Shown here piece after piece: positions 2,226-41,903 of a stretch of 64,000 nucleotides of DNA; position 1 is the stretch's first letter; every line of letters starts with the position of its first letter. The DNA comes from Cordylochernes scorpioides (Eukaryota > Arthropoda > Arachnida > Pseudoscorpiones > Chernetidae), in NCBI GenBank assembly GCA_030710605.1, contig CP092886.1, forward strand, positions 52,967,862 through 53,031,861, given 5' to 3'. The notes below the pieces were generated by a model. That model ran no database searches. It saw nothing but the letters and a program-made list of their open reading frames with translations, and was not told where the DNA came from. The position numbers were made by a program, and so were the translations under genes.

Positions 2226-3718
2226 CACTGGTGTCCAAAAAATAAGAAACTTAACCAATATTGAAATTTCTCAAAAGCTAATTTATTAACAAATATAAAA
2301 TTTAGTATACAAATAGTTTAAACTAGGGAGAATTTGACTAGCTATATCAAAATTTAAAAAAATATTTGAAATTATGAAATATGCAAATTATTACCAACAT
2401 ACCCAAAGCTAAGGTTCCAGATCTTAAAGAAATAATATATCAATAGGTAGTATGATCACCTCTAACAGATATCAAGGTCTCACAGCGAGCCCTCATACTG
2501 TTTACCATGCTTTGGAGGAGGTCCAGGAGTAGTAAACCCCACTCCTCCAATAGAGCAATTCTTAGCTCAACGAGGGTTCTGGGAGAGGGGTGACGAGCTC
2601 CAATACGCCTCCCTAGAGCATCCCACACATGCTCTATTGGATTCAGGTCAGGAGATCTGGCTGGCCAATCCATCCTTCGAATATTCTCACTCTGGAGATA
2701 TTCATTGACTAGCCTAGCCCTATGCGGACGAGCATTATCGTCCATTAAAATTAAATTGTGACCAATTTGATCTCTATAAGGTCTTAGATAGGGCTCAAGG
2801 AACTCGTCCCTGTACCTTTGGGCAGTTAAAGTGCCCCCAGAAAAAATGTGGAGGGGTGTGCGTCTGCTAGAACTGATGCCAGCCCAGACTAAGAGACAGC
2901 CCCCTCTAAAACTGTCTATTTCCGTGATGTTACTGGGATGATAGCGGGTTCCAGGCTTCCTCCAGATGAAAACTCGTCGATAATCTGTGTTTAAACTAAA
3001 TCTTGACTCGTCACTGAAGAGAACATTGACCCACTGATCATGAGTCTAGGCGTGATGTTCCACGCACCAATTCAAGCGGTCTCTCCTGTGAGCAGAGGTT
3101 AAAGGGATACAGACCATTGGTCGTCTTGCATAAAGAGCACCTTCGTGAAGCCTTCGGTAAACAGTTTGTCTTGAAATTCTCGTTCCAGTAACACTTGAGA
3201 GTTCATTAGAGAGTTGAATAGCTGTCATCTCCCTATGGCGCTTGACAGTTACGACCAAATAACGGTCTTCAGAGGTAGCTGTTTTTCTTTTTCTACCAGA
3301 ACCTTCTTTTCTTTTGATGGCTCCTGTCTCAATGAACAGTTTCCATATTTTACTGACCACAGATTTATTTACATTTAGCCATTTTGCTACTTCAACTTGT
3401 GATTGCCCTGCCTCCATTTTTCCAACAGCTCTCCATTTTAAATCATCTGCTAAATTTTTCGTAAACTCATAATCAACTAAGGATTAAATAAAATTATAAT
3501 TGGACAATTCTTAGATGGGGGTAAACGACACGCCAAATAGCACACTTATAAAGACAAGCAAAAATTTGCATATTTTCAATTTTACCGAATCGAATGGTTG
3601 CAATAAATAAATTCTACGACTTAAAATACCTAATTAAATTACTTTTTAGCTTTTAGCGTTGTATATTTTAAAACATATCATTAAAAAACAAAAGTTTCTT
3701 ATTTTTTGGACACCAGTG
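2226..3718 (-). mobile_element. Tc1-like DNA transposon, 1493 bp
   Basis: The ends are inverted copies: CACTGGTGTCCAAAAAATA at 2226 and its complement ending CCAGTG at 3718. The left flank is the dinucleotide TA expected of Tc1/mariner target sites. The right flank is GATGG instead, because retrozyme sequence starts there and shares the last three bases with the transposon end. One transposase gene lies inside on the minus strand. Length and organisation are typical of Tc1 elements of about 1.3-1.7 kb. Confidence 0.9.
2440..3417 (-). pseudogene. Tc1-type DD34E transposase, one in-frame stop
   Basis: The reading frame codes for a Tc1 transposase. Its N-terminus has the paired helix-turn-helix region (SQVEVAKWLNVNKSVVSKIW, then the RKRKTAT linker and a second HTH). 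The DDE catalytic core follows, with first Asp in FSDESRFSL, second Asp in MDDNARPH and Glu in PDLNPIEHVWD, the normal DD34E spacing. A single TAG codon at 3043-3045 interrupts an otherwise continuous frame, at a place where Trp would fit (TGG to TAG). The first ATG (3417) lies about 20 residues inside the usual family start, and upstream codons stay open until a TAA, so the original start codon was probably lost. The protein would cut and paste the element at TA sites. It is inactive as it stands, although only one base may separate it from an open frame. Confidence 0.9.
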
Positions 3719-4260
3719 GATGGCTTTTCTTGATTTATCAAGAAATTGGGTTGGCCAAATATCAGGGAACAGGCTAAATCAATGTTTAGTTGATTTCTGT
3801 TCCACCAGATGGCGTTCTGCCTTCTGTTTAGCACATGTGCTCCTGGTCAGGATATGCCATGTTTATTATTGATTTCAACACCTGATCTTTTTATCTTTTT
3901 TTTTTCTTTCGTTTTTTTAATGTGCTAAGCGTATTTACGCAAGTTTGGCCTTAAATACCCATTTCTTGTTTTTTCGGGAAGCCGTTGGGACCAAAAAAAC
4001 CTTTTTGGTCGCAGTCGTTCAGCCTACTCCACGCTGACGAGCGCCAAAAGCGCGAAACGCGTTCGTGGATGGCCTTTCTTGATTTATCAAGAAATTGGGT
4101 TGGCCAAATATCAGGGAACAGGCTAAATCAATGTTTAGTTGATTTCTGTTCCACCAGATGGCGCTCTGCCTTCTGTAAAGCACATGTGCTCCTGGTCAGG
4201 CTATGTCATTTTTATTATTGATTTCAACACCTGATCTTTTTATCTTTTTTTTTCTTTCGT

Positions 4261-4277
<17 letters not shown>
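3715..4277 (+). mobile_element. Retrozyme-like tandem repeat, 349-bp monomer, 1.6 units
   Basis: A direct repeat with offset 349 bp: 3716 onward matches 4065 onward through the poly-pyrimidine stretch that ends near 4277. The repeat boundary coincides with the predicted cleavage site of the hammerhead ribozyme at 4022-4073. One full monomer (3715-4063) is followed by a partial second copy that ends in (TA)n. No protein is encoded. This head-to-tail layout with a hammerhead at the junction is that of metazoan retrozymes, small circular-RNA retroelements thought to use the reverse transcriptase of Penelope-like elements. Transposition competence is not shown by sequence. Confidence 0.8.
4022..4073 (+). 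ncRNA. Type I hammerhead ribozyme (retrozyme 2)
   Basis: All core elements are present in order. Stem I 5' strand CCACG is at 4029-4033 and conserved CTGACGA at 4034-4040. Helix II is GCGC 4041-4044 paired with GCGC 4050-4053 around loop CAAAA. Conserved GAAA is 4054-4057, helix III is the minimal self-complementary ACGCGT 4057-4062, and the cleavage residue is U4063 (GUU). Stem I 3' strand CGTGG is 4064-4068 and pairs completely with 4029-4033. A further GCC/GGC pairing (4022-4024 with 4071-4073) lies beyond an internal loop. The tiny palindromic helix III resembles the minimal hammerheads of Penelope-like elements and animal retrozymes, which are thought to cleave best as dimers. Confidence 0.85.
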
Positions 4278-4301
<24 letters not shown>

Positions 4302-4332
4302 ATATTAAAAAATTATTCTATTTAAAAATTAA
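4261..4332. repeat. (TA)n microsatellite and AT-rich junction
   Basis: A (TA)n run at about 4267-4298 is followed by TGTTATATTAAAAAATT and further A/T sequence up to the truncated LTR at 4333. The same junction sequence, about 42 bp including the TA run, recurs at 9183-9225 on the far side of the LTR element. Confidence 0.85.
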
Positions 4333-4444
4333 TTTCACCTTTGGCCCAGCTGTGTCGCCTTCCACCACGACTGCACGGTAGAGTTGACATCGAGGTTCGT
4401 CTAGCATCAGGTAACATTGGTCCCAGAGGTCCCAAGATATCACA
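4333..4444 (+). repeat. 5'-truncated 5' LTR of element A
   Basis: Identical in length and nearly in sequence to the final 112 bp of the 3' LTR. It begins TTTCACCTTTGG and ends AAGATATCACA, consistent with a terminal CA. Confidence 0.85.
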
Positions 4445-8369: not shown

Positions 8370-9182
8370 TGATGATTTAAGACCATGGAATTGTTGTAAA
8401 TAGTCTAGATATCGACTACCACATGTTCCACCCCATGACTGTATATAACTTCTTATGTACTGCACATAGAAAACCTCAACTAACATCAATCTGTACCGCG
8501 TAAGAATCTAATAAAGTATTGCAACTGCACAGATAGTAGGAATGGAGAGAGACAGGAGAAAGTTAAGGTTAAAACAAATCAGGCTTAGAGGATCGTAGAA
8601 GTCAAACCTAAGAAGTAGATCTAGGAGAGAACATAATTATTAATAACGTCACAGTTAACCTTCTGACCCCGGAAACCCTGCGAGCTAAGTTTAAACCAAT
8701 ATTTCCGGACAAGACAGGAGGTATCTGGTGACCAGAAGTTATAAAAGTTTGAGAGACGCCCAATTTCCGGAACAAGACCGGACGTATTTTCCATCAAAGA
8801 AAGCCGCAAGGCCAATTACAGAAGACATCACCTAAGTAGGTCAACCAATAGCCTACGGCCACGTGAAAAAGTCCCACCAATTAGGAAAGAATCACCTAAA
8901 TAGGTCAGCCAATCAGAAAGAAGCAAGGTCGTGGTGTTAAATCGAGGACCTAGAATTGTAAGTCTCCGCTTGGATTCCAACGGTAACACTTGCTCTTAAG
9001 ATCTCTCTCTCTCTCCTCATCCCATTCCTTCTTGACGTCAGACGTTTTTAGTGGAATCTCTGTTTGTTTATTTCACCTTTGGCCCAGCTGTGTCGCCTTC
9101 CACCACGACTGCACGGTAGAGTTGACATCGAGGTTCGTCTAGCATCAGGTAACATTGGTCCCAGAGGTCCCAAGATATCACA
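8370..9182 (+). repeat. 3' LTR of element A, 813 bp
   Basis: Starts TGATGATTTAAG and ends GATATCACA, with TG...CA termini. The start is homologous to the element B LTR (TGATAATTTAAA). No coding frame is evident. Confidence 0.75.
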
Positions 9183-9569
9183 TATATATATATATGTTAT
9201 ATTAAAAAATTATTCTATTTAAAATATATTTCATAGATTCAAATATTTTGTTTATATCTACCTTCAGATGTCGGGACTTCCCTTATAAAAACTCATTGTT
9301 GTTGTTTCCCGGTGGCCGGCTCAAAACCTAAGAATAATCTTTTGTTTTCCTTATTCTACTCGCCTTAAGCCAGGCATTACTTTTATCAAATTTTCTTTTT
9401 TAAATATATATTCCATGGGTTCAATTAAAGCAACCTCTGATCAAACCATTATTATTTTTATTTCAAGATTTAACCACGACTGCATCACCATTACCATAAT
9501 TCTCAACATGATCAAAAATTCAAACAAGCAGAAAATCTCTCAATATTTTTCTTTATAACATATTTATAT
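9183..9569. other. Intergenic AT-rich stretch
   Basis: The first about 42 bp duplicate the sequence left of element A at about 4287-4329. The rest (9226-9569) shows no frame, repeat or structure that I can interpret. Confidence 0.5.
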
Positions 9570-10104
9570 ATAGATGGAAATTTTGCTGGGAGGATATTGA
9601 TCTAAAGAGACAAAGGTCGCCTCTCCCGTCAAAATAGACGTCAAAACTAGACGCCATCTATTGACCGTCACCGCAAACTAGCGGTCTCGGGTCGGTGACA
9701 AAGCCATAACACCAGCTTTGGCAAACTGAAAAGCGTCCACCTAGAGAGTGTTGTGGCTTTGTCACCGACCCGAGACCTCTAGTTTGCGGTGACGGTCAAT
9801 AGATGGAGTCTAGTTTTGACGTCTATTTTGACGGGAGAGGCGACCTTTGTCTCTTTAGATCAATATCCTCCCGGCAAAATTCCCATCTATATTTTAGCCA
9901 TAGATTTGGCCCAGCCACTTTGCCAGCTAAACACCTCTTTGGCAGATTGTCAAGATTCCATTAGATCCCGTGTGGATCTCATGGAATAAAGTCCGCCCTA
10001 GACTGACGAGGGCCATTAGCCCGAAACCATGGTCTCTAGGTGGACGTTTTTCAGTTTGCCAAAGTTGGTGTTGTGGCTTTGTCACCGACCCGAGACCGCT
10101 ATTC
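9570..10104 (+). mobile_element. Retrozyme with inverted partial copy, about 320-bp monomer
   Basis: Three blocks are visible. Block 1 (9570-9747) is an inverted partial monomer. Block 2 (9748-10034) is a direct monomer lacking its first about 33 bp and ending at the hammerhead cleavage site. Block 3 (10035-10104) is the start of the next direct copy, offset 320 bp. Arms 9570-9712 and 9748-9890 are a 143-bp inverted repeat. The inverted copy begins within 2 nt of the position corresponding to the ribozyme cleavage site. There is no coding capacity. It lies beside a mariner fragment. Head-to-tail plus inverted arrangement and a hammerhead at the junction are hallmarks of retrozymes and Penelope pLTRs. 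Confidence 0.85.
9991..10045 (+). ncRNA. Type I hammerhead ribozyme (retrozyme 1)
   Basis: Outer stem I pairs GTCC 9991-9994 with GGAC 10042-10045. An internal loop (GC opposite T) separates it from inner stem I, CCTAGA 9997-10002 with TCTAGG 10035-10040. Core CTGACGA is 10003-10009. Helix II is GGGC 10010-10013 with GCCC 10019-10022 and loop CATTA. GAAA is 10023-10026. Minimal helix III ACCATGGT spans 10026-10033 and is palindromic. The cleavage residue is C10034 in a GUC triplet. Every conserved core position is satisfied and all helices pair without mismatch, so this is the most convincing ribozyme in the window. Confidence 0.92.
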
Positions 10105-10450
10105 ATCGTGGACATTTATCCGCCCCTCGTTAAACTCCCGGCACCATTTCCGCACATTTTTGATGTCCATGCACTTCTCACCATACACTTCCACTAACTG
10201 ACGGTGAATTTCGACCGGAGAATTATTTTTCGAGGAGACAAGTGGCTCAAAGAGGCGGCGGGAGAGTGGTACAACACCTGAATTACAAAGTTGGTTGACA
10301 GGATGAAAAAAGTGATTGAGCATCAAGGCGACTATGTAGAAAAATAGCAAAGTGTCCAACCTTTCCAATGATGTATAAAAGGTTGTGATTAAATGTGTTT
10401 TTCTATGAAAAAAAAATAGGAGACCTTACTTTTCTACTCACCCTCGTAGT
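10105..10450 (-). pseudogene. mariner transposase 5' fragment with terminal repeat
   Basis: On the minus strand the frame ending near 10105 encodes a mariner N-terminal helix-turn-helix region (SPVEIHRQLVEVYGEKC, then VRKWCREFNEGR). The catalytic domain is missing because retrozyme sequence begins at 10104. Upstream, the interval ends at 10450 with a terminal-repeat-like sequence reading TACGAGGGTGAGTAG on the minus strand. This is the 5' third of a mariner element of which only the DNA-binding part survives. Confidence 0.75.
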
Positions 10451-18964: not shown

Positions 18965-19808
18965 TAGAAGAGTGCCTAAATCTATGGGAGAGTATTTGTC
19001 CATATTGTTTCGTATGTTTCTGATATTTCAATACATCTGTTTATCCCTTTTTTTGGTGTTTGGTTATCAAAGATTCTAATAAAGGTCTTTGGTATTTACT
19101 ATGAATATTGTCATAATACACTATCGGTTGAGATAAGTTAAATATATGACCTGTTTCTTTTATGTGTTGAACTATTAAAAATCTGGGTCACTATTGATAA
19201 TATTCCTATGTTCGGCTATTATGTTCGGCTATTCTATTATGGACTTTTCTCCCAGTCTCCTCTACATATTTAGAATTACAGTTATATATTGCAAGATATG
19301 GAGTAGATAGTTTCTTTTATTAAGTGGAATATTGGATTGATTCTTTGTTAATGGGTTTCTAATCATATTACCTAAATTTAGAGATTTATTGTACATAGTT
19401 TTGATACCATATTTTCTAAGTGTTCTAGCTATGGATACTGATTGAAGGGAATATGGAATGATGAATAATGCTTTATAAATTTCTGACTTTTGGGTTATTG
19501 AATTGGTGTTTTCTGCAGTCTGATAAAATGTCGAAGGATGAAGGATTTTGGGTAACCTGATGATAATAGAGTTTTACAATATTTTTGGTTTCTTCTGTTT
19601 TTAATTGAGGTAAAGAACAATGTGTGAATATTATTTTAGATAATGTTTTTATAGTATTGATCTTATGGCTAAGAGGACAGAATGAAGAATATTTAATGTA
19701 GTTTGGGATAAAGGATGGCTTATAATATACACCTGTATTTATCTTCTATTCTCATGATTTTAATATCTAAAAAGGAAAGGAACTCATTATTCTCCTTTTC
19801 TACTGTAA
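18965..19808 (-). pseudogene. Penelope-like element: RT end and GIY-YIG endonuclease, broken
   Basis: On the minus strand, from the gap toward lower coordinates, the sequence reads FLSFLDIKIMR (RT palm end). It continues with RT-thumb sequence ending IARTLRKYGIKTMY and then a degraded GIY-YIG region (NSKYVEETGRKV, HNRIAEH, and QHIKETGHIFNLS), closing with LLESLITKH. Several stops and frameshifts interrupt it. RT followed by C-terminal GIY-YIG is the classic Penelope layout. The N-terminal part is lost in the assembly gap or beyond it, and the right inverted end at 18962 truncates the 3' side. Confidence 0.8.
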
Positions 19809-21730: not shown

Positions 21731-24700
21731 TTAAAAGTAATTTTCTGGAATAAATGAATCATAAAGTAACCTATAGTTTGAGTATGTTTTCGTAAGAGAT
21801 AATTTTGCCAGATCTTGCTGCAATAGCTGTTCAATTTTTATTTTTAGTATATTCGGAAATTCGATCTGTATGTCATCATAATTTAACCTATAGTTTAGCC
21901 ATGAGAGTCCACAATGATTGATGATATCCATAATATTCCTACAGAATCCTATAGGTTTTTTTGTCATTAAGGAAATTTCCTTCAATCTATTCCAGCATAA
22001 CTTAGGTAGTCTATTGTCTTCCATTTTTTGTAATCTAATGAAATATTTCAGAATTAATTTGATCGTTGTAAAAGTCAAAGATATTCTGCCTGTTTCCAGC
22101 CTTACAATGTACCCTGGTATATATCTTGGTAGATTCAGAAAATTTTTGATAAACGTATTCTGTAATTGGTCTATAATATCCGTATTGTCCCAAGCCCACA
22201 CAGGGGCCGCATAGAGCAGTATTGATTTAACAACTGAGTCAAATAAATTCAGAGCAACTTTTAATGAGTTAATTTTTTCTTTTTTTATCAGTCTAATAGT
22301 TGCATTTATTGCCGTATTTGCTTTGGCTTTATAAAAGAGGGCTACCTTTTTACTATTAATAGTGGAAGTGAATGGATATCCCAGATATGTAATATTGGAC
22401 GCAACAGTCAGTGGGGTGTCACCCCAGTACCAGTTTTCGTGTCTTGCCGGTCTTCCTCCATTTCTGAATACTATTATTTTGGACTTATTTTCATTTAAAA
22501 CTAATTTGTTCTTATCCAGGTAAGACTTTAGTAAATTGATTTTAATTTGAAGATTAATTTTCGTTTCTCCAATTATGGCTATGTCATCCGCATACATAAG
22601 TAGGTGTAAAACGCCAAAATCAGGGAGATGAAATCCTGTAAGTGCTGAGTTATTATAAAGTTCTATTAGGTCGGCCATATATAGTATAAATAAAAGTGGG
22701 GAAAGTGATTCTCCCTGCAACACTCCAGAATTAATTTTCACATTACTTGAATATTGTCCTTTCCATCGGATAGTGATCTTAGCTTCCTGGTAAAAGTTTT
22801 TTATCAGCATTACAAATTTATTGCTAATGCCCATTTTATGCAATTTTTGCCAAAGTAAATCATGTGGGACTGTGTCGAAAGCTTTAGTCAAATCGACGAA
22901 GAAGACATATAGCTTGCCTCGTTTTCTTCTCAGAGATAATTGGATGAGTGAATTCAATAGTATTATGTGGTCAGTGCATGATCGGTTCTTACGGAAACCT
23001 GCTTGGTTTTCTAAAATAATCCCTCTTTTTTCTATCCAGTTGTTTAATCTGTTTCTTAGTATTGTAGTAAATAATTTAGATATATTACTGCAGAGGGCAA
23101 TCCCTCTGTAATTTGTTGGGTTATTCTTATCACCGCTTTTATATATAGGGTGTACTATTGAGTTCGTCCAGAGTTGCGGGTATTTTTCTGTGGACATTAT
23201 TTTGTTGAATAGGTTTTTCAATTTAGTTAAAGTCGGTATTGGTAAATTCTTTAGCAACTCATTCGGTATACCATCGAGTCCCACTGCTTTGCCATTCGCT
23301 AGTTTTTTTACTACATCATGGATCTCTTCAAGGGTTATTTCCGCGTCTAAATCTGGATCTTTCCAACCGATCATCTGGTTTAACGTAAAAGTAGCTTCTT
23401 TATTTTCTTTGTTCAGTAAATTTTTATAAAATAAAAACCATTCTTTTATATCAATCTCACCTTGTATTATTGGTTTTTTTCTGAAGGATGCAATGGCATT
23501 CCAGAAGGATTTGGGATCTTTGGCGTTTTTTATCCTTTCATTCTTGTCCTTATTAAATTCATCTCTTTTTCTTTGCAGGAGCTTAAAATATTCCCTCCTA
23601 GCCTCAATATATTTTTGGCGGTCGTGTATGTTATTTGAGTTCCTACATCTTTGTAAACTTACTTTGGTCGTTTTTTTCATAATATAGCAATCTTTGTCAT
23701 ACCAAGGTTTTGAAAGTTGGTGTCGTCGTTTAGCAAATTTAATTATATTTGCCGATTCCATTGCCGTGTAGATCTGTTTAGTAAAATTTACTGTTTCTGT
23801 GTTAATATCGGTTTCATTTCCAACTTCAATATCACTTAAATTATGTTTTAGCATATCCACATTTTCTTTCGTCCAAATGAATTTTCGTGTTAGTATTTCA
23901 TTTTTGTACGAGGATTTAATAGCTTCATACCCAGTATTAATTTGTAAAACAATTGGTAAGTGGTCTGAATATGAAAGTTCTTCGATCCACATATCCGATA
24001 TGATCTGTGTTAAACCGTGTGTGTACATGAAATAATCCAAAACCGATGAACCTCTTTCTGAAATAAAAGTGAATGAGCCGTGCGTGTCACCCTTAGTTCT
24101 TCCATTTGCTATTGTTATAGAATTTGAATCAGTGAAGGAAATTAGTTTTTCAGATAGTTTCGAAGATATTAGGTCTTTAGATTTCCTATATTTGTTGAGG
24201 GGTGAATTTAGTTTCAGTGGGTTATGGAAGCCTCCAGCATTGCCTATTCTAATATTGATGTCACCAGCTATTAGCACTTCGTTACCTTCACTCATGTGAT
24301 AATCAATATACCTAAGTAAATTTGTTAAATTTTGTTCTTGTAATGCATTAGGAGGTAAATAAACAAACAGCAAACATATACTCTCGGTGGTTTTGTCTAG
24401 AAATTTGTGCGTCAAGACAGATATCCAGTAAGGGTTTGTTTCGATTTTTCTAACCGTATGTTGGAAGTTTTTTTTTAATCCTATCAGAATTCCCCCCGAG
24501 CCCCTTCCCTTTAGTTCTGTCTTCATTGCTGGGCTTTGAATTATGTAATATTCATCAGTTAACAATTCAATAACATCAGTGATCCATGTTTCATTTAGTG
24601 CAAAAAGTTCGTATTTTTTTAGGTATTCAACGAGTGGAAATATTGATGTTATTCTATTGAATCCATTTATATTCCATTGTAATATTTTAATTTTAGTATC

Positions 24701-24937
24701 TATATGTTTGACCTGAGTTACTTGTTTGTCTTTTATTGCCGATTCACAGTTTTTCGTATGTGTATACCTAATTTTAGTTGTATTTCTATCTGATATATTT
24801 TCCGTAACCTTTGAGTTTTTAATTTTAGAAGTTTTAGCCGTGAGTGTTTTATCATAAAGTGGCTGTATGGACACTGTATTAGAGATCTGTTTATCAATGG
24901 GTTGACTATTTACAAGTGATTGTTTCCTATCTGCCTG
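21731..24937 (-). CDS. LINE ORF2: APE endonuclease and reverse transcriptase
   Basis: About 1068 codons after the ORF1 TAG, in the same frame. The APE endonuclease occupies roughly residues 75-330 (ILQWNINGFN, ALNETWI, GRGSGGILIG, IAGDINIRIG, SYSDHLPIVL), with catalytic residues visible. The RT follows (about 480-800): GLDGIPNELL, NYRGIALCSNISKLF, QAGFRKNRSCTDHI, FFVDLTKAFDTVPHD, SGVLQGESLSPLLF and MYADDIAIIG, the catalytic YADD. No ATG occurs between the TAG and the endonuclease, so translation presumably depends on readthrough of, or mutation at, that codon. The frame stops at TAA 21731-21733 and then continues open with a zinc finger. It would nick target DNA and copy the LINE RNA. Confidence 0.88.
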   Translation of the reverse strand, partial: QADRKQSLVNSQPIDKQISNTVSIQPLYDKTLTAKTSKIKNSKVTENISDRNTTKIRYTHTKNCESAIKDKQVTQVKHIDTKIKILQWNINGFNRITSIFPLVEYLKKYELFALNETWITDVIELLTDEYYIIQSPAMKTELKGRGSGGILIGLKKNFQHTVRKIETNPYWISVLTHKFLDKTTESICLLFVYLPPNALQEQNLTNLLRYIDYHMSEGNEVLIAGDINIRIGNAGGFHNPLKLNSPLNKYRKSKDLISSKLSEKLISFTDSNSITIANGRTKGDTHGSFTFISERGSSVLDYFMYTHGLTQIISDMWIEELSYSDHLPIVLQINTGYEAIKSSYKNEILTRKFIWTKENVDMLKHNLSDIEVGNETDINTETVNFTKQIYTAMESANIIKFAKRRHQLSKPWYDKDCYIMKKTTKVSLQRCRNSNNIHDRQKYIEARREYFKLLQRKRDEFNKDKNERIKNAKDPKSFWNAIASFRKKPIIQGEIDIKEWFLFYKNLLNKENKEATFTLNQMIGWKDPDLDAEITLEEIHDVVKKLANGKAVGLDGIPNELLKNLPIPTLTKLKNLFNKIMSTEKYPQLWTNSIVHPIYKSGDKNNPTNYRGIALCSNISKLFTTILRNRLNNWIEKRGIILENQAGFRKNRSCTDHIILLNSLIQLSLRRKRGKLYVFFVDLTKAFDTVPHDLLWQKLHKMGISNKFVMLIKNFYQEAKITIRWKGQYSSNVKINSGVLQGESLSPLLFILYMADLIELYNNSALTGFHLPDFGVLHLLMYADDIAIIGETKINLQIKINLLKSYLDKNKLVLNENKSKIIVFRNGGRPARHENWYWGDTPLTVASNITYLGYPFTSTINSKKVALFYKAKANTAINATIRLIKKEKINSLKVALNLFDSVVKSILLYAAPVWAWDNTDIIDQLQNTFIKNFLNLPRYIPGYIVRLETGRISLTFTTIKLILKYFIRLQKMEDNRLPKLCWNRLKEISLMTKKPIGFCRNIMDIINHCGLSWLNYRLNYDDIQIEFPNILKIKIEQLLQQDLAKLSLTKTYSNYRLLYDSFIPENYF

Positions 24938-32239: not shown

Positions 32240-33075
32240 TATATATATATATTTTTATAATTTTATATTTTATCCTTTTTTTTTTTAAGATTTTTAAAGG
32301 TTTTTTTTATTTTATAATATGATTATAAATAGTTGTATTTAGTAATATATCTATAGTATGAATTAACATTCGTTATAAGTTTGGATATTATGTTTTGAAA
32401 CCCTAATGGTAGACCAGACATACACAAAAAACTTTAAATTGAAATAAATTGGAAAAAGAGATCTGCTGGACCGGGGATCTTCAGATAAAAGCCCAACGAC
32501 ATTTCACCCCTTCTTTATTATGTCATAGATCTCTTTTAAACCGGATTTTATGTGTTAATATTAAGTTGTTTCAGTGAAATATTTAAATGAACATATATAA
32601 CAGATACAAGTGTTAACAAATTCAAACTGTAAACCTACCTCGACCGTGGCGTCCTCCATTGTGAATATCTATTTCTGGCTGACACATGTTGCGGGGGGGG
32701 GGGGACATTTCAAATTTAGACCATTTATTCAGAATTTTTTGAAAAACAAGAAAATTAAAGAAGAAAGGAAAAATAGTTAAGGGAAGAAAGCTGAATTTCA
32801 TAATCTTTACAGTTAGTTATATCTAAATAACTGATTCAACACTTATTCATCTTTTAATATTCCTTTAAAAAGGCAAATTATAAGAGTTTAATAAAGCTAT
32901 TAATTGTGCAAATTCACCTTTATTTAACCTCCATTTTCCTCCCCAGAAATTGGAGATTAAACAAAATGAACTATATACTATAACACTTTAAAAATCTTGT
33001 GAAAAAATCTTTTAATCAGTTATTTAATCAAAGTTTAATTAACTGTTAAAGATTATAAATTTGTATTAGTTATTA

Positions 33076-34911
33076 TTAAGAGAAATTATAGAAAGTTGAT
33101 TTCATAAATGGATATTTCCATTTATTTTTTTTTATATATTTTATAATTGATATACTGTTGAAATATTTTACTTGTTTGATACTAAATTTGTTTTTAATAA
33201 ATTCCATGTTTAAATTTTTAACATCTTCTATGAAATTATCTAATATATTATTTATTCTATAAAATCTTAGAAACTGACCATAATATATACCCTTACAGCA
33301 ATTTAATGATATATTAGAATTCATATTACAGTATTTTATAATATTGAAATTATAATTACTCTTTTTATTATAAACTCTAACAGCACTATTTGTAAGGTCT
33401 ATATTCAAGTCTAAAAAGTTAACTTTTTTGTTTCTATAAATTTTTTCATTGTTCTTAAGTTTCAAGTATTTAGGATATATTTCAGGTATTAATTTTTTAA
33501 ACTGTGGATTATTAAATATTATTATGTCATCTACATATCGGAATATTTGCCAATTAATATTATTTTGTAGAAAGTATTCTCTTTCGTACCAGAACAATAT
33601 TAAATTGGCTAATAATGGACTAGAAGAAGTTCCCATGGGAACGCCTTCTGATTGAATATATATTTTATTTTTAAATTCTATATAGTTAAAATTTAAAAAT
33701 GTTTCCAGTAGAGTTTTTGCTGTTTTAAGATCTAATTTAAATGTTTTATATCTGTTATGAATAATTTTAATGTAGAAAGTTTTGTCATTAATGAATTCAT
33801 TAAATAAATTGGTTATTTTATTATTTAGATCTCTTAAATTTATTTTAGAATATAGGTCCTCAAAGTCAAATGTGTGTACTGTTTCAATGTTTGTCCAATT
33901 GTTCATTAAATAATTAATGATTTTTTTATTTGAGTCGATAAATTTATAATTATATTTATTAGTTAATTTATTTATAATAAATTGTAGTGTTGAAGCTAAT
34001 TGTATATCAATATTTTTTATGACTGAATTTATACCAGATGTGATTGTTCTGAAAGAAATAGGTTTTTTGTGTAGTTTAGGAATTATATAGAACTTTGGTA
34101 TGTTTGGATTTTTGTGGTTATTATAAATATTTAGTGAATTTTCAACATTTTTGATGTCTTTTTTGATTTTTGTGCCTGTAGTTCTAGCAAAAGTGTATTT
34201 ATGATTATTATCAATTTCCTTTTTAGTATATCGTGGTATAGATTTTTACAAATTAAAGATAAATTATTGGAACATTTATCTATAGGAGTGATAATATAGT
34301 CCTTCTGTAAATTAATTATATTTTCTTTAAAAGAAGGAATGTCTGAATTAGGTTTTGTGTATTTAAGTGTATTATTATAATAATTTATAATTTCCTTTTT
34401 AATATTATGTTTCCATTCCAGAAAAGTAAATTCTGGAATACTGTATTTTATACTAGTTTTATTTATGAAAATATCTATATCTTTTAATATAGATTTAATT
34501 GTATTATTATAATTGTGTTTAATTTGAGGTATATATTTATACCCTTTATTTAAAATTTCTTGATATTCTGGATTTAAAAAAGAAAAATTGCTAGTTAATA
34601 TATGACCTGAGAACTTATATTTATCAATATAGTTGTTGCAATTACATTTAATTTTTTTAAAATTTGCCAAATTATTAATAAATTGGTTATAATTACAAAC
34701 TAAATTACCTATATTTTTGTTGTATCTCCAGATTGTTTTGAAATTTAAATTTTTTATAGGGAAAAGATTATTGATGATTTGGTTATTAAAAATATCATTA
34801 AATTTAATATGATTAAATAAATTGTTATTAAATTTAATGATAATATTAATGTTATTAGTAGCTTGTTTAATTTTTCTGTATTTAAAGATGTCGTGTGTGA
34901 TATCTATTAAT
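33076..34911 (-). pseudogene. Penelope-type reverse transcriptase without C-terminal GIY-YIG (Naiad-like?)
   Basis: Minus-strand frames 34911 to 34131 and 33906 to 33076, with a frame change between them, make one RT. The N-terminal part has IKCNCNNYIDKYKFSGHILT (a Cys-X-Cys...His region) and KDYIITPIDKCSNNLSLICK. Near 34050-34100 lies KFYIIPKLHKKPISFRTI, the FYGLPKIHK-type motif of Penelope RTs. The palm follows: FDFEDLYSKI (first Asp), EGVPMGTSSSPLLANLI, RYVDDIIIFN (catalytic YVDD) and KVNFLDLNID. The ORF ends at 33076 with no GIY-YIG domain. Its 5' end is cut exactly at the palindrome junction (34911/34912), so an N-terminal endonuclease could have been lost. That would suit the Naiad group, whose endonuclease precedes the RT. 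Group assignment is inference. Confidence 0.75.
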
Positions 34912-35302
34912 CTTGAAACTTAAGAACAATGAAAAAATTTATAGAAACAAAAAAGTTAACTTTTTAGACTTGAATATAGACCCTACAAATAGTGCTGTTA
35001 GAGTTTATAATAAAAAGAGTAATTATAATTTCAATATTATAAAATACTGTAATATGAATTCTAATATATCATTAAATTGCTGTAAGGGTATATATTATGG
35101 TCAGTTTCTAAGATTTTATAGAATAAATAATATATTAGATAATTTCATAGAAGATGTTAAAAATTTAAACATGGAATTTATTAAAAACAAATTTAGTATC
35201 AAACAAGTAAAATATTTCAACAGTATATCAATTATAAAATATATTAAAAAAAATAAATGGAAATATCCATTTATGAAATCAACTTTCTATAATTTCTCTT
35301 AA
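34912..35302 (+). pseudogene. Inverted copy of the RT C-terminus
   Basis: The plus-strand frame of 130 codons equals the last 130 residues of the RT at 33076-33466 with one substitution, and ends in the same MKSTFYNFS plus stop. It starts abruptly at the palindrome junction and has no promoter or start of its own. Confidence 0.9.
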
Positions 35303-36542
35303 TAATAACTAATACAAATTTATAATATTTAACAGTTAATTAAACTTTGATTAAATAACTGATTAAAAGATTTTTTCACAAGATTTTTAAAGTGTTATAG
35401 TATATAGTTCATTTTGTTTAATCTCCAATTTCTGGGGAGGAAAATGGAGGTTAAATAAAGGTGAATTTGCACAATTAATAGCTTTATTAAACTCTTATAA
35501 TTTGCCTTTTTAAAGGAATATTAAAAGATGAATAAGTGTTGAATCAGTTATTTAGATATAACTAACTGTAAAGATTATGAAATTCAGCTTTCTTCCCTTA
35601 ACTATTTTTCCTTTCTTCTTTAATTTTCTTGTTTTTCAAAAAATTCTGAATAAATGGTCTAAATTTGAAATGTCCCCCCCCCCCCCCGCAACATGTGTCA
35701 GCCAGAAATAGATATTCACAATGGAGGACGCCACGGTCGAGGTAGGTTTACAGTTTGAATTTGTTAACACTTGTATCTGTTATATATGTTCATTTAAATA
35801 TTTCACTGAAACAACTTAATATTAACACATAAAATCCGGTTTAAAAGAGATCTATGACATAATAAAGAAGGGGTGAAATGTCGTTGGGCTTTTATCTGAA
35901 GATCCCCGGTCCAGCAGATCTCTTTTTCCAATTTATTTCAATTTAAAGTTTTTTGTGTATGTCTGGTCTACCATTAGGGTTTCAAAACATAATATCCAAA
36001 CTTATAACGAATGTTAATTCATACTATAGATATATTACTAAATACAACTATTTATAATCATATTATAAAATAAAAAAAAACCTTTAAAAATCTTTAAAAA
36101 AAAAAGGATAAAATATAAAATTATAAAAATATATATATATATATACTAACAATCTTATCTACCTTCTTTACAAAACTTTTTTTTTCTTTATTATTAGTTT
36201 GATTAAAAGTGCATGGTTCTGTCTTTCTCTCTTTTTTCTAACTATTATATATATTTTTACTTCGATTATTCTATATATAGGATTAGAGTATGTCTAAATG
36301 ACGTGTAAAAGCCGATGTAATAGACGTTACGTTGTTAATTTTTATTGTTATTAATTATAAATATATAATTAACTTGATGATGTATTAGAAGTAAAGGATT
36401 TTTTTTTCTCTCTCTATCTACAAATTAATAACATTTTACAAATTTTATAATTTGAATTTAAATGATCATAATAGTGAAGATAATCTTAATACAAAACTGG
36501 ACTATAAAATTAAATAACTATTTATTATTATAATATATATAT

Positions 36543-37163: not shown

Positions 37164-37316
37164 ATATACATATATGTACATATTTCTCTTATAACTTTAT
37201 AAACACTCTCGAATTCGTTTATTTATTGTAAAACCGAGTACATGTTAGGATCATTCTAATTGTGTGAGTCGAGAGAGATAGAGATAACGCGGCGCGATAT
37301 GAAAACTATTATTCTT

Positions 37317-37573
37317 CAAATTAAAGATACTTCGGCCAGTAAATTATATAATTTTTATATAAAATTATTTATAGCTACAAGGGTCACTCCAAAATATTTG
37401 CAATCACTTATTTTCATTAAACCTGCAACTTTCAAATTTTCAGAGTTTCTCAAAGAATATTTTAACGCTTTGCTAAATGTTTTAATTTTTGTTCGCTCCT
37501 GACGAGAACAATAGATTTTTGTCGAAACGTCGAGACAATAAAAATATTTACTGGCCGAAGTATCTTTAATTTG
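37317..37573 (+). mobile_element. Short element with 28-bp inverted ends and hammerhead-like core
   Basis: Inverted ends of 28 bp lie at 37317-37344 and 37546-37573 (CAAATTAAAGATACTTCGGC and complement). The interior is AT-rich, and a hammerhead-like core sits just inside the right end (37491-37539). The 80-codon open frame at 37260-37502 is not recognised. Inverted ends plus a ribozyme-like core resemble two Penelope pLTRs in inverted orientation. Confidence 0.6.
37491..37539 (+). ncRNA. Possible hammerhead ribozyme with minimal helix III
   Basis: CTGACGA is at 37499-37505, GAAA at 37524-37527, and ACGTC (helix III nucleotides plus cleavage C) at 37527-37531. Helix II pairs 37506-37511 with 37519-37523, allowing one bulged A and a TAGATTT loop. 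Stem I gives three pairs (37496-37498 with 37532-37534), an internal loop, then three more. Helix III has no loop (ACGT), so it could close only in a dimer. The core is complete but the stems are weak, so activity is uncertain. Confidence 0.5.
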
Positions 37574-38005
37574 AATAATTATGAATGCCGGCTAGGCAGC
37601 CTCTAACTTTACGATAAAAACTACTATGTTCAAAATCCAGTATATCCTCGATTCACTGGCAATCAGGGAACGCACAGCAACTATCGTCAAGTCAATAAAT
37701 TTTTACCTCGGGTAGTGTGTTCATTCAAAATTCAAAAAGTTGTAATTAGAAACATCAGCGATGCGCAGCAATTTATTTTTATTCACTATTGCGCATGTGC
37801 TGCATTGTTTTTCAGCAGCCACTTCTTATTGGTCGACGTCACAATTTGATGGATCATTTTTCTGCCCTCACCACCCTCCAACCTCTATATATCTAAATTA
37901 TCTATATTTAAATGAAGAGACAACACAAATAAATTAAGAGTAGACGAAGTTTAATTTTCACGTCCTTTAATAATTTTATTTTAAAATCCAATCAAGAAAA
38001 AAATA
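37574..38005. other. Unassigned intergenic stretch
   Basis: No gene or repeat identified. It lies downstream of the 38031-39008 frame and may include its 3' flank. Confidence 0.5.
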
Positions 38006-40149: not shown

Positions 40150-41903
40150 AAAACATCAAAACACTTTAGTCAATCTTTCTAACTAATCAATTACACCCAA
40201 TGCTACGAGACTTTTATCAAACCTAATAAATTATGTTGCGTCTCGAAAGATTGATATACCCAGGACTTTAGCTACTATTGAAAATTCTATAAAACTTTTA
40301 CTAGTTCAAAATAAGGTCAAAATAAGATTAGAGGTTACACCAATAATTTAAAAAAATGGAACTACAAAATAAAACTAATTTAAATCTAGAAAAAAGACAG
40401 GCTATCAAATCATTAAAACATAATAAAGATATTAATATAACACCTTCAGACAAAGGAAGAAACACAGTAATTATGAACACAACAGATTACAACAATAAAA
40501 TTTGTCAATTACTTCAAGAAGATGAAACTTATGAACATCTAACCAAAAATGTATTATCTAATCTCACTAAGAAATTTAATAAAAAAAAAAACTCAACAAA
40601 ATAATACGTGTACACAAACCAGAGAAGAAAACCTTCGAAAATTTAAAAGCACAAGACACTAATCTACCTCACTTTTATGGGCTTCCGTTACTCCCTATTG
40701 TGTCATATGCTGGCTCATCACTTTACCCTCTAACAAAATTTATTTCTCCCATTATCTCTTCACTTCAGAAATTACTCCCCCCACACTGTCCCAAATTCAA
40801 CAGTAGCTGTTGAGAAAATCCAAAACCTTTCAATCTCTAATCAAAGCCGAATGGTATCATTCGACGTCGAATCTTTATACACTTCAATTCCACATGATGA
40901 AGCAATTTTAACTCAAAAATTTATTGAAACCCATCAACGCTCTGTTCTTCCTTTTTCATCTGAAGCTTGGATAGAATTAATTAAACTTTGCTTAGAATAT
41001 AATTATTTCAACTATAAAGACCAATTCTTCAGACAAATTAAAGGCCTGCCGATGGGCAACCCTATTTCATCGGCTTTGGCAAATATCTTCATGAATCAAT
41101 TTGATCAATTTGTTACAGAATCAAAACATTTAAAAATTATTTTTTGGCAAAGAGAGATATATAGAAGACATTTTTTGTATAACTGAATCAGAAATTTCAA
41201 TCTTTCCAAAATTTTTGAATAATCTAAAACCATTTTTGAAGTTCACACACGAAATTGAAAAAAATCAATTCTCTGGGATTTTTAGATATTCAAATTAAGA
41301 GAAAACAAAATAAAATTGAAACTAGTATTTATAGAAAGTCTACCCACACTCTCTCTCTCTCTGTAAACTACCTAAATTTCCATTCTTTCGGCCCAGTCCA
41401 TCACAAAACTTCTGTAATAAACACTCTCTCTAAAAGATTAACTACACATTGCTCAATGAAAAATGATGAAAATATGGAGAGAAATAGAATTTTTAGAGAC
41501 CTAAAAAACAATGATTACCCAGAAAAATTTATTAAAAATAACCTTTATAAACCTAAATTTGTACAATCAAGCAACAGCTCTGATCAATCAAAAAAGTTTT
41601 ATTACACCCTCCCTTACAGCTACGGCTCTGAACGCATTGCCAGAGTCTTAAAGAGAAACAATATAATTGATACATATATATAAATCTTCATTCAATTTGA
41701 AAAAATTCCTACGCACCCAGACACCAAAAAAAATTGCAAATTAAAAAACAGAAACAATGTAATTTACAAAATACCATGTAATGATTGCCCCGCCAAATAC
41801 ATAGGAGAAACAAGCAAGCCTCTAACACAAATCTGGTTTAAGAAATTATAATCCATTATCACTCCTTGTAGACCACGCTTTGAAAAACAATCACACACCG
41901 GAC
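40150..41903 (+). pseudogene. Penelope-like element, RT and first part of GIY-YIG endonuclease
   Basis: The plus strand carries, in several frames: RKIDIPRTLATIENSI (N-terminal linker), RQAIKSLKHNKDINITPSDK (40356-40604), HFYGLPLLPIVSYAGSS, then the RT palm at 40851-41186 (SFDVESLYTSIPHDEA, KGLPMGNPISSALANIF). The catalytic box reads RYIEDIFCI where YVDD is expected, so the first catalytic Asp of the pair is replaced by Glu. RT-thumb sequence follows (FLDIQIKRKQNKIETSIYRK, PYSYGSERIARVLKRNNII), then VIYKIPCNDCPAKYIGETSK, the GIY-YIG start with zinc-binding Cys pair. At 41903 the frame is cut by Copia inside NNHTPDF. The last 55 codons lie at 54123-54289. Frameshifts and the YIED change make it inactive. 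Confidence 0.9.

Follow-up and report, generated by a model that had tools for sequence, protein, structure and literature searches.

How does a repeat of 320 nucleotides (nt) that carries a hammerhead ribozyme (HHR) come to be inserted at many places in an animal genome? The question is raised by a small element in a 64,000-nt stretch of the pseudoscorpion Cordylochernes scorpioides (contig CP092886.1, positions 52,967,862 to 53,031,861), which we call the window. The element has no coding capacity: no open reading frame (ORF) of at least 130 amino acids is listed in 9568-10101, and its unit is too small for a reverse transcriptase (RT). Which enzyme moves animal retrozymes is discussed in passages of PMC7229834 (Cervera and de la Pena 2020): a helper is needed, and Penelope-like elements (PLEs) are 'a strong candidate'. 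There the candidacy rests on shared HHRs, tandem copies and co-existence. In the parts we cite, PMC8969392 states that retrozymes 'may rely on PLEs', and PMC7761336 and PMC11722881 put it much alike. PLEs have recognizable hallmarks, given in excerpts of PMC3846280 as a tail, head-to-head pseudo-LTRs (pLTRs) and target duplications of 8-10 bp. According to PMC11167929, both target strands are cut and extended by the PLE protein, which starts at two internal sites, one at either boundary of the tail; no difference in start site between the two strands was seen in vitro.

The HHR lies on the plus strand at 9989-10048, and its parts can be read directly. Stem I pairs GUCC[GC]CCUAGA (9991-10002) with UCUAGG[U]GGAC (10035-10045). 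The core CUGACGA (10003-10009) is followed by stem II, GGGC-CAUUA-GCCC (10010-10022), and by GAAA (10023-10026). Stem III, A-CC-AU-GG-U at 10026-10033, is the palindrome ACCATGGT; C10034 is H17, and the cut is predicted at 10034/10035. The motif has the CUGANGA core, GAAA, a UH cut site and helices I to III, and it is open at helix I (type I). An earlier, sequence-only reading of the window had described a complete core with three helices at 9991-10045 and a palindromic helix III. All of these parts are present.

Such a motif might arise by chance. The bare core pattern is not significant: it occurs 10 times in the window against a mean of 5.3 expected, and 7 of 100 shuffles reach 10. A type I descriptor finds two places in the window, 4034 and 10003, each with a stem I of 6 bp and a stem II of 4 bp. 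Sixty dinucleotide shuffles of the whole window yielded one place at looser settings and none with stem I of at least 5 and stem II of at least 4. The place at 10003 belongs to what we call family 1, and the one at 4034 to a second family described below.

Copies of family 1 allow the pairing to be examined further. We searched 2.62 Gb of the genome in 24 contigs and fetched 40 distinct loci, 40 of the 3385 candidates being scored in the search. L010 was left out because it is L006 again, L011 and L016 cover overlapping parts of one contig, and L042 and L043 are used in no result. The 40 loci contain 72 HHR regions with 43 distinct sequences, many of them decayed. Standard pairs make up 95.7% of pair cells in the family-1 HHR, against 24-44% with the partners slid (38 of 40 distinct 60-nt regions; L014:2192-2251 and L039:1875-1934 were left out). 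Within family 1 alone one pair changed on both sides, which is not above shuffles, so only a cross-family alignment is informative on covariation. A model built on family 1 picks up the family-2 HHR at 4020-4077 with E 7e-11 (rough calibration). In the cross-family alignment, which was fitted to the model and in which cells count sequences and not events, 11 of 17 pairs have both-side changes, with 54 such cells against 9.8 in shuffles (84 matches, 8 of them from family 2, in 55 distinct rows; two or three poor rows were kept).

The covariance-model check that the sequence-only reading had set in advance as its refuter came out negative: Rfam has no significant match for the HHR at 9991-10045. 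At the gathering threshold nothing matches 9989-10048, and 1101 bases around the HHR contain no hammerhead at E up to 10. The best family-1 result is RAGATH-1-hammerhead with 12.5 bits (E 5.5 in 81 bases), where the gathering threshold is 56.3. The family-2 HHR scores best with Hammerhead_HH9, at 27.3 bits and E 1.7e-5, below the curated threshold of 52 bits. Given the 72 regions, the 95.7% of standard pairs, the family model and the cross-family covariation, we infer that Rfam misses the HHR because its models presuppose a longer stem III. In our view, the family model and the covariation outweigh the negative Rfam result. The claim of a type I HHR within a retrozyme holds on the dispersed copies, the descriptor counts against shuffles, the family model and the covariation between families. 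Some miRNA-like Rfam matches at 9681-9779 are simply the inverted arms of the element, all under gathering. Scanning viral contigs with the family-1 HHR gave no match.

Can so short a stem III support cleavage? Folded as a circle, the unit reaches -110.8 kcal/mol, compared with -82.2 (sd 4.8) for 100 single-base shuffles. This minimum-energy fold contains stems I and II but is not the catalytic one, since it lacks stem III and has the core's GAC paired to GUC. Co-folding two HHR segments gives -51.6, and folding a single segment -22.2; in the co-fold the palindromes of the two segments pair with each other. The palindromic stem III suggests, as far as predicted folds go, a weak monomer that would act as a dimer. 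Amphibian retrozymes with weak stem III are described in part of PMC7229834 as acting as a dimer, and the predicted dimer fold here agrees.

What is the repeating element? The family-1 unit has 320 nt and a GC content of 47.5%; we number it from u1, window position 10035. Its copies are dispersed over many contigs. The arrays of L011, L016 and L018 contain several direct joints of u320 to u1, each of which carries an HHR, and they have no ORF. The family is a 150-450 bp repeat with a type I HHR, multicopy and partly tandem, as metazoan non-LTR retrozymes are. No direct terminal repeats beyond the repetition of the unit were found in the family-1 loci. Units of one locus agree at 96.6-100% (12 pairs from L011, L016 and L018, of which L011 and L016 overlap), and units of different loci at a mean of 92.1% (278 pairs, highest 98.7%). 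Minus and plus arms are 99.4-100% identical (6 pairs). These identities fit the copying of one or like RNAs on both sides simultaneously, for more than one round of the unit; later homogenisation could also produce them.

The window copy consists of two arms. The left, inverted arm occupies 9568-9747 on the minus strand, running from u319 to u178, and the right, direct arm 9748-10101 on the plus strand, from u34 to u320 and on to u67. Together they form a long hairpin (145 nt, 97%). The right arm is cut short at 10101, where it adjoins a mariner-like piece (10102-10239, minus strand) that matches HTH_48 of the Mos1 transposase with E 9.1e-7. We had considered 10101 as a conserved 3' end and withdrew it: many genome matches stop at query position 351 because the query itself diverges there, at the mariner piece. 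The left flank of the window copy matches a flank of L003 without a difference over 150 nt, so the two loci, 140 kb apart on the same contig and in opposite orientation, are segmental duplicates. In L003 the other arm reaches u152. An older family-1 copy, about 78% identical, lies at 2008-2208 on the minus strand, with a short plus-strand piece at 2180-2208. The window also begins with a tandem array (1-664; period 85 or 169, 96% matches).

The predicted cut had been read as the start of the repeating unit, and the ribozyme as the explanation of the repeat structure. Both ideas are right in part. In the window copy the inverted arm has its inner end, 9747, no more than 2 nt from the cut. Across the family, however, only 4 of 64 inner ends fall within 3 nt of the cut, and the direct repeat of the window copy begins at u34 (9748/10068, spacing 320). 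Two of those four ends, moreover, belong to the duplicated window locus; about 1.4 would be expected (7 of 320 positions), and we rejected the cut site as a general repeat boundary. Inner junctions are scattered. The ribozyme fits a period of 319/320 nt with one HHR each, but not the head-to-head arms, the outer ends and the target duplications. A better explanation of these is reverse transcription of the two-ended PLE type that begins about 142-182 nt past the cut.

The outer ends show a pattern. We mapped unit segments in the 40 loci and obtained 43 clusters of at least 150 nt that stay clear of the locus ends, plus 4 touching one. Thirty-one of the 43 are head to head (minus then plus, 3' ends outward), 7 are plus-plus and 5 minus-minus. 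Outward 3' ends fall into two windows, u138-156 (short) or u172-186 (long), in 60 of 74 cases, these limits having been fixed after the data were seen. Where both ends could be classed, every cluster has one short and one long end (24 of 24; 13 long-left, 11 short-left). With L032 and L037 removed as duplicates, the count for independent insertions is 22 of 22, and random pairing would give this with a probability of 2e-6. The observed short ends span u142-155 and the long ends u175-182; in the window copy, the outer end at 9568 counts as long. As aligned, the two lie 22-39 nt apart, a scatter that comes from AT-rich flanks blurring the ends, and in clean cases such as L020 and L027 the distance is 35. 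L008 is a weak case, its last segment being 81% identical.

The pattern of two sites (u142-152 and u177-182) had been recorded before the last 11 loci were fetched. These contributed six two-ended clusters (L031, L032, L034, L037, L038 and L040), of which four are independent since L032 and L037 duplicate earlier loci. All six fit the narrower limits. Target duplications are found in part of the sample: with words containing ATATAT or TATATA left out, exact repeats of at least 8 nt flank 9 of 22 insertions, four of them 14 nt long, compared with 29 of 462 mismatched-locus pairings, and 13 of the 22 have no repeat of that length. Examples are ATAAGCTAT in L040, AAAAACATCTTAAG in L023 and CTGCTTTTACTGTA in L027.

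Is this pattern peculiar to one family? Family 2 has a unit of about 350 nt and occupies 3716-4265 on the plus strand, with a single arm whose outer end, u204, is of the long class. Its HHR has a GUU cut triplet and the stem III palindrome ACGCGU. The unit is repeated in the window with 96% identity over 202 nt, and its GC content is 41.4%. Between the two families, 25 nt at the HHR core are shared, and all further matches are no better than chance. Each of the four two-arm clusters of family 2 (L019, L023, L025 and L028) has one end at u153-160 and the other at u193-209, the family having been sampled within loci fetched for family 1 and PLEs, with L032 and L037 set aside as duplicates. Near both retrozymes, at 4266-4440 and 9070-9224, the window has a common stretch, TTTCACCTTTGGCCCAGC.., together with 43 identical AT-rich bases, in different order.

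A third element, at 37313-37616 on the plus strand, has a minimal PLE-like HHR core at 37499 and 37-nt inverted arms arranged head to head. It is flanked by AAAACTATTAT and AAAACTACTAT, which match at 10 of 11 positions by eye and are likely an 11-bp target duplication. This element and a relative in L045 (920-1136) both have one short and one long end, separated by about 30-39 nt, as read by eye with the two copies compared with each other only. Rfam finds no HHR in it.

Do the PLEs of the same genome leave such ends? The window contains a decayed PLE at 40361-41860 on the plus strand (RVT_1, E 4.6e-9 at 40842-41141, then a GIY-YIG-like stretch by eye) and PLE RT fragments at 19391-19745 on the minus strand (tblastn, E 3.6e-8). 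Another RT fragment, at 32901-35480 (RVT_1 at 33076-33903, minus strand), consists of two head-to-head copies with 3' parts outward, 99% alike in the overlap. We searched the genome with the window's PLE piece and scored 150 matches of 21235 candidates. Among the matches scored is a subfamily with open frames of up to 818 amino acids; its copies form tandem runs with a period close to 3240 and often stand in head-to-head pairs, for example at C9:82544368-82557731 and in L066-L069. A C-terminal frame in L068 matches GIY-YIG with E 2.7e-6, and the older L049 has an RT match with E 1.2e-15.

We read the PLE ends in four loci. Of the head-to-head pairs listed for the younger subfamily, these four have the shortest distance between their two matches, and the list has more pairs. 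All four show one arm that stops at ...TTATTATCTAAT and another that extends 31-33 nt beyond it, the long end of L066 being taken from the alignment. This extra piece is the tail. It contains ATGGATTGCTCTATTTTCAAAA, possibly the start of the ORF; in the Anolis PLE the tail likewise lies in the first part of the ORF. The target duplication is an exact 13 nt in L068, and that of L069 was seen by eye. A canonical HHR core is absent from the PLE arms of the four loci, the only match, at 159 in L069, falling outside the arms. The PLE 3' region reads CTCGATAAAGGTTGGC..GCCAGCCGAAATATTGG where an HHR is expected, without the canonical core, and Rfam finds none at the PLE 3' end of L068. Retrozymes and the PLE stretches compared with them have no sequence in common beyond chance pieces of 10-15 nt or nested family-2 copies. 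Retrozyme copies do adjoin PLE 3' ends: family 2 in L064 (2868-2934) and L048 (from 3138), family 1 in the right flank of L067. It looks as if PLE ends may be favoured as retrozyme targets.

Since the pairing of the ends is that of the published PLE tail, PLE machinery most likely inserts these retrozymes. We put at roughly three in four the probability that family 1 is a metazoan non-LTR retrozyme inserted in this way. The type I HHR, probably dimerised through its palindromic stem III, would cleave the transcripts of tandem units, and the cut units would be joined into RNA circles, as is published for elements of this kind. A PLE protein with RT and GIY-YIG domains would then cut both strands of an AT-rich target. 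On each strand cDNA synthesis would start at one of two internal RNA sites, about u142-155 (short) or u175-182 (long). Both cDNAs would run toward the 5' side of the RNA, in some copies for more than one round of the unit, and would be joined 5' to 5', giving head-to-head arms between target duplications, as the footprint suggests. The PLE protein as enzyme, self-cleavage, circle formation and priming on both target strands are all presumed steps. The template could be either a circular RNA or an uncut tandem RNA, for the footprint would fit both.

A stricter version can be formulated for PLEs themselves. It would have two internal start sites about 30-40 nt apart, with one used on either strand of the target, and a completed insertion would therefore always have a short and a long end; the same PLE ribonucleoprotein would insert small HHR RNAs, reading round a circular template on both strands. 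This we offer tentatively, at somewhat less than even odds.

The same ends could be expected if the unit were no independent element at all. It might belong to an autonomous PLE with its HHR in the pLTR, as a solo pLTR or some other piece; arms, tail and duplications match those of PLE pLTRs, and the genome does have PLEs with pLTR-like HHRs (a degenerate core at 1326 in L003, and 37499 in the window). Yet the arrays run directly from u320 to u1 without an ORF, and the PLE stretches examined match the unit only by chance or through nesting. We regard the pLTR explanation as unlikely. The unit itself is not an autonomous PLE, for the RT and GIY-YIG ORF is absent from it, the PLEs sitting elsewhere in the genome.

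Nor need the enzyme be that of a PLE. LINEs are present in the window (the ORF at 21731-24874 on the minus strand resembles one by eye), and one of them might insert the retrozyme by target-primed reverse transcription with twin priming, which likewise yields inverted 5' parts. This is quite improbable: the family-1 ends inspected have no A-tail or simple 3' tail, and LINEs are not known to leave two fixed internal ends, one per side, with long arm overlaps, whereas a PLE of the same genome leaves exactly such short and long ends. The 145-nt arm hairpin, the arrays and the many decayed HHR copies could also point to a fold-back repeat or satellite in which the HHR is a dead remnant and the footprint arose by recombination or self-priming. 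A satellite should hardly be found on many contigs with fixed outer ends and, in part, target duplications, nor should two otherwise unrelated units share the 25-nt HHR core and its pairing; we consider this very improbable.

Insertion by PLE machinery, our preferred reading, has consequences beyond this locus. Two otherwise unrelated retrozyme families have a footprint in common with a PLE that resides in their own genome, and this bears directly on the insertion pathway as evidence. That a short end is always paired with a long one also constrains PLE integration itself. Purified PLE protein offers one way to check the footprint, and every assembled genome another. Family 1 fits best among the metazoan non-LTR retrozymes, as a new family of a known kind whose ribozyme is ordinary for that kind. 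What is new here, and worth following, is the insertion footprint that ties the retrozyme to PLE machinery. Neither tails nor head-to-head arms are reported for retrozymes in the open-access literature that we searched, which is not proof that none is published.

How do these elements compare with known systems? Metazoan non-LTR retrozymes, in the portions of PMC7229834 we cite, have a type I HHR in a repeat of 150-450 bp; the units here are 320 and about 350 nt. As here, those retrozymes are tandem and without an ORF, have GC below 50% and duplications above 4 bp, and co-exist with PLEs. The stem III palindrome is found in amphibian retrozymes also, according to the same portions. The words 'inverted' and 'head-to-head' have 0 occurrences in the main text of PMC7229834, and arms and short/long ends are not among the features described there. 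Those features are found in PLEs: excerpts of PMC3846280 and the text of PMC11167929 give AT-rich targets, head-to-head arms of which one carries a tail of about 31-40 bp, and duplications of about 8-14 bp. The same is seen here, the duplications in part of the insertions. A PLE, however, is about 3.2 kb long with an RT/GIY-YIG ORF, and the retrozyme unit is 320 nt without one. Plant LTR retrozymes, as presented in part of PMC4918200, are likewise non-autonomous elements with an HHR, but their HHR is of type III and they have LTRs and 4-bp duplications (according to passages of PMC7229834), whereas the elements described here have type I HHRs and longer duplications.
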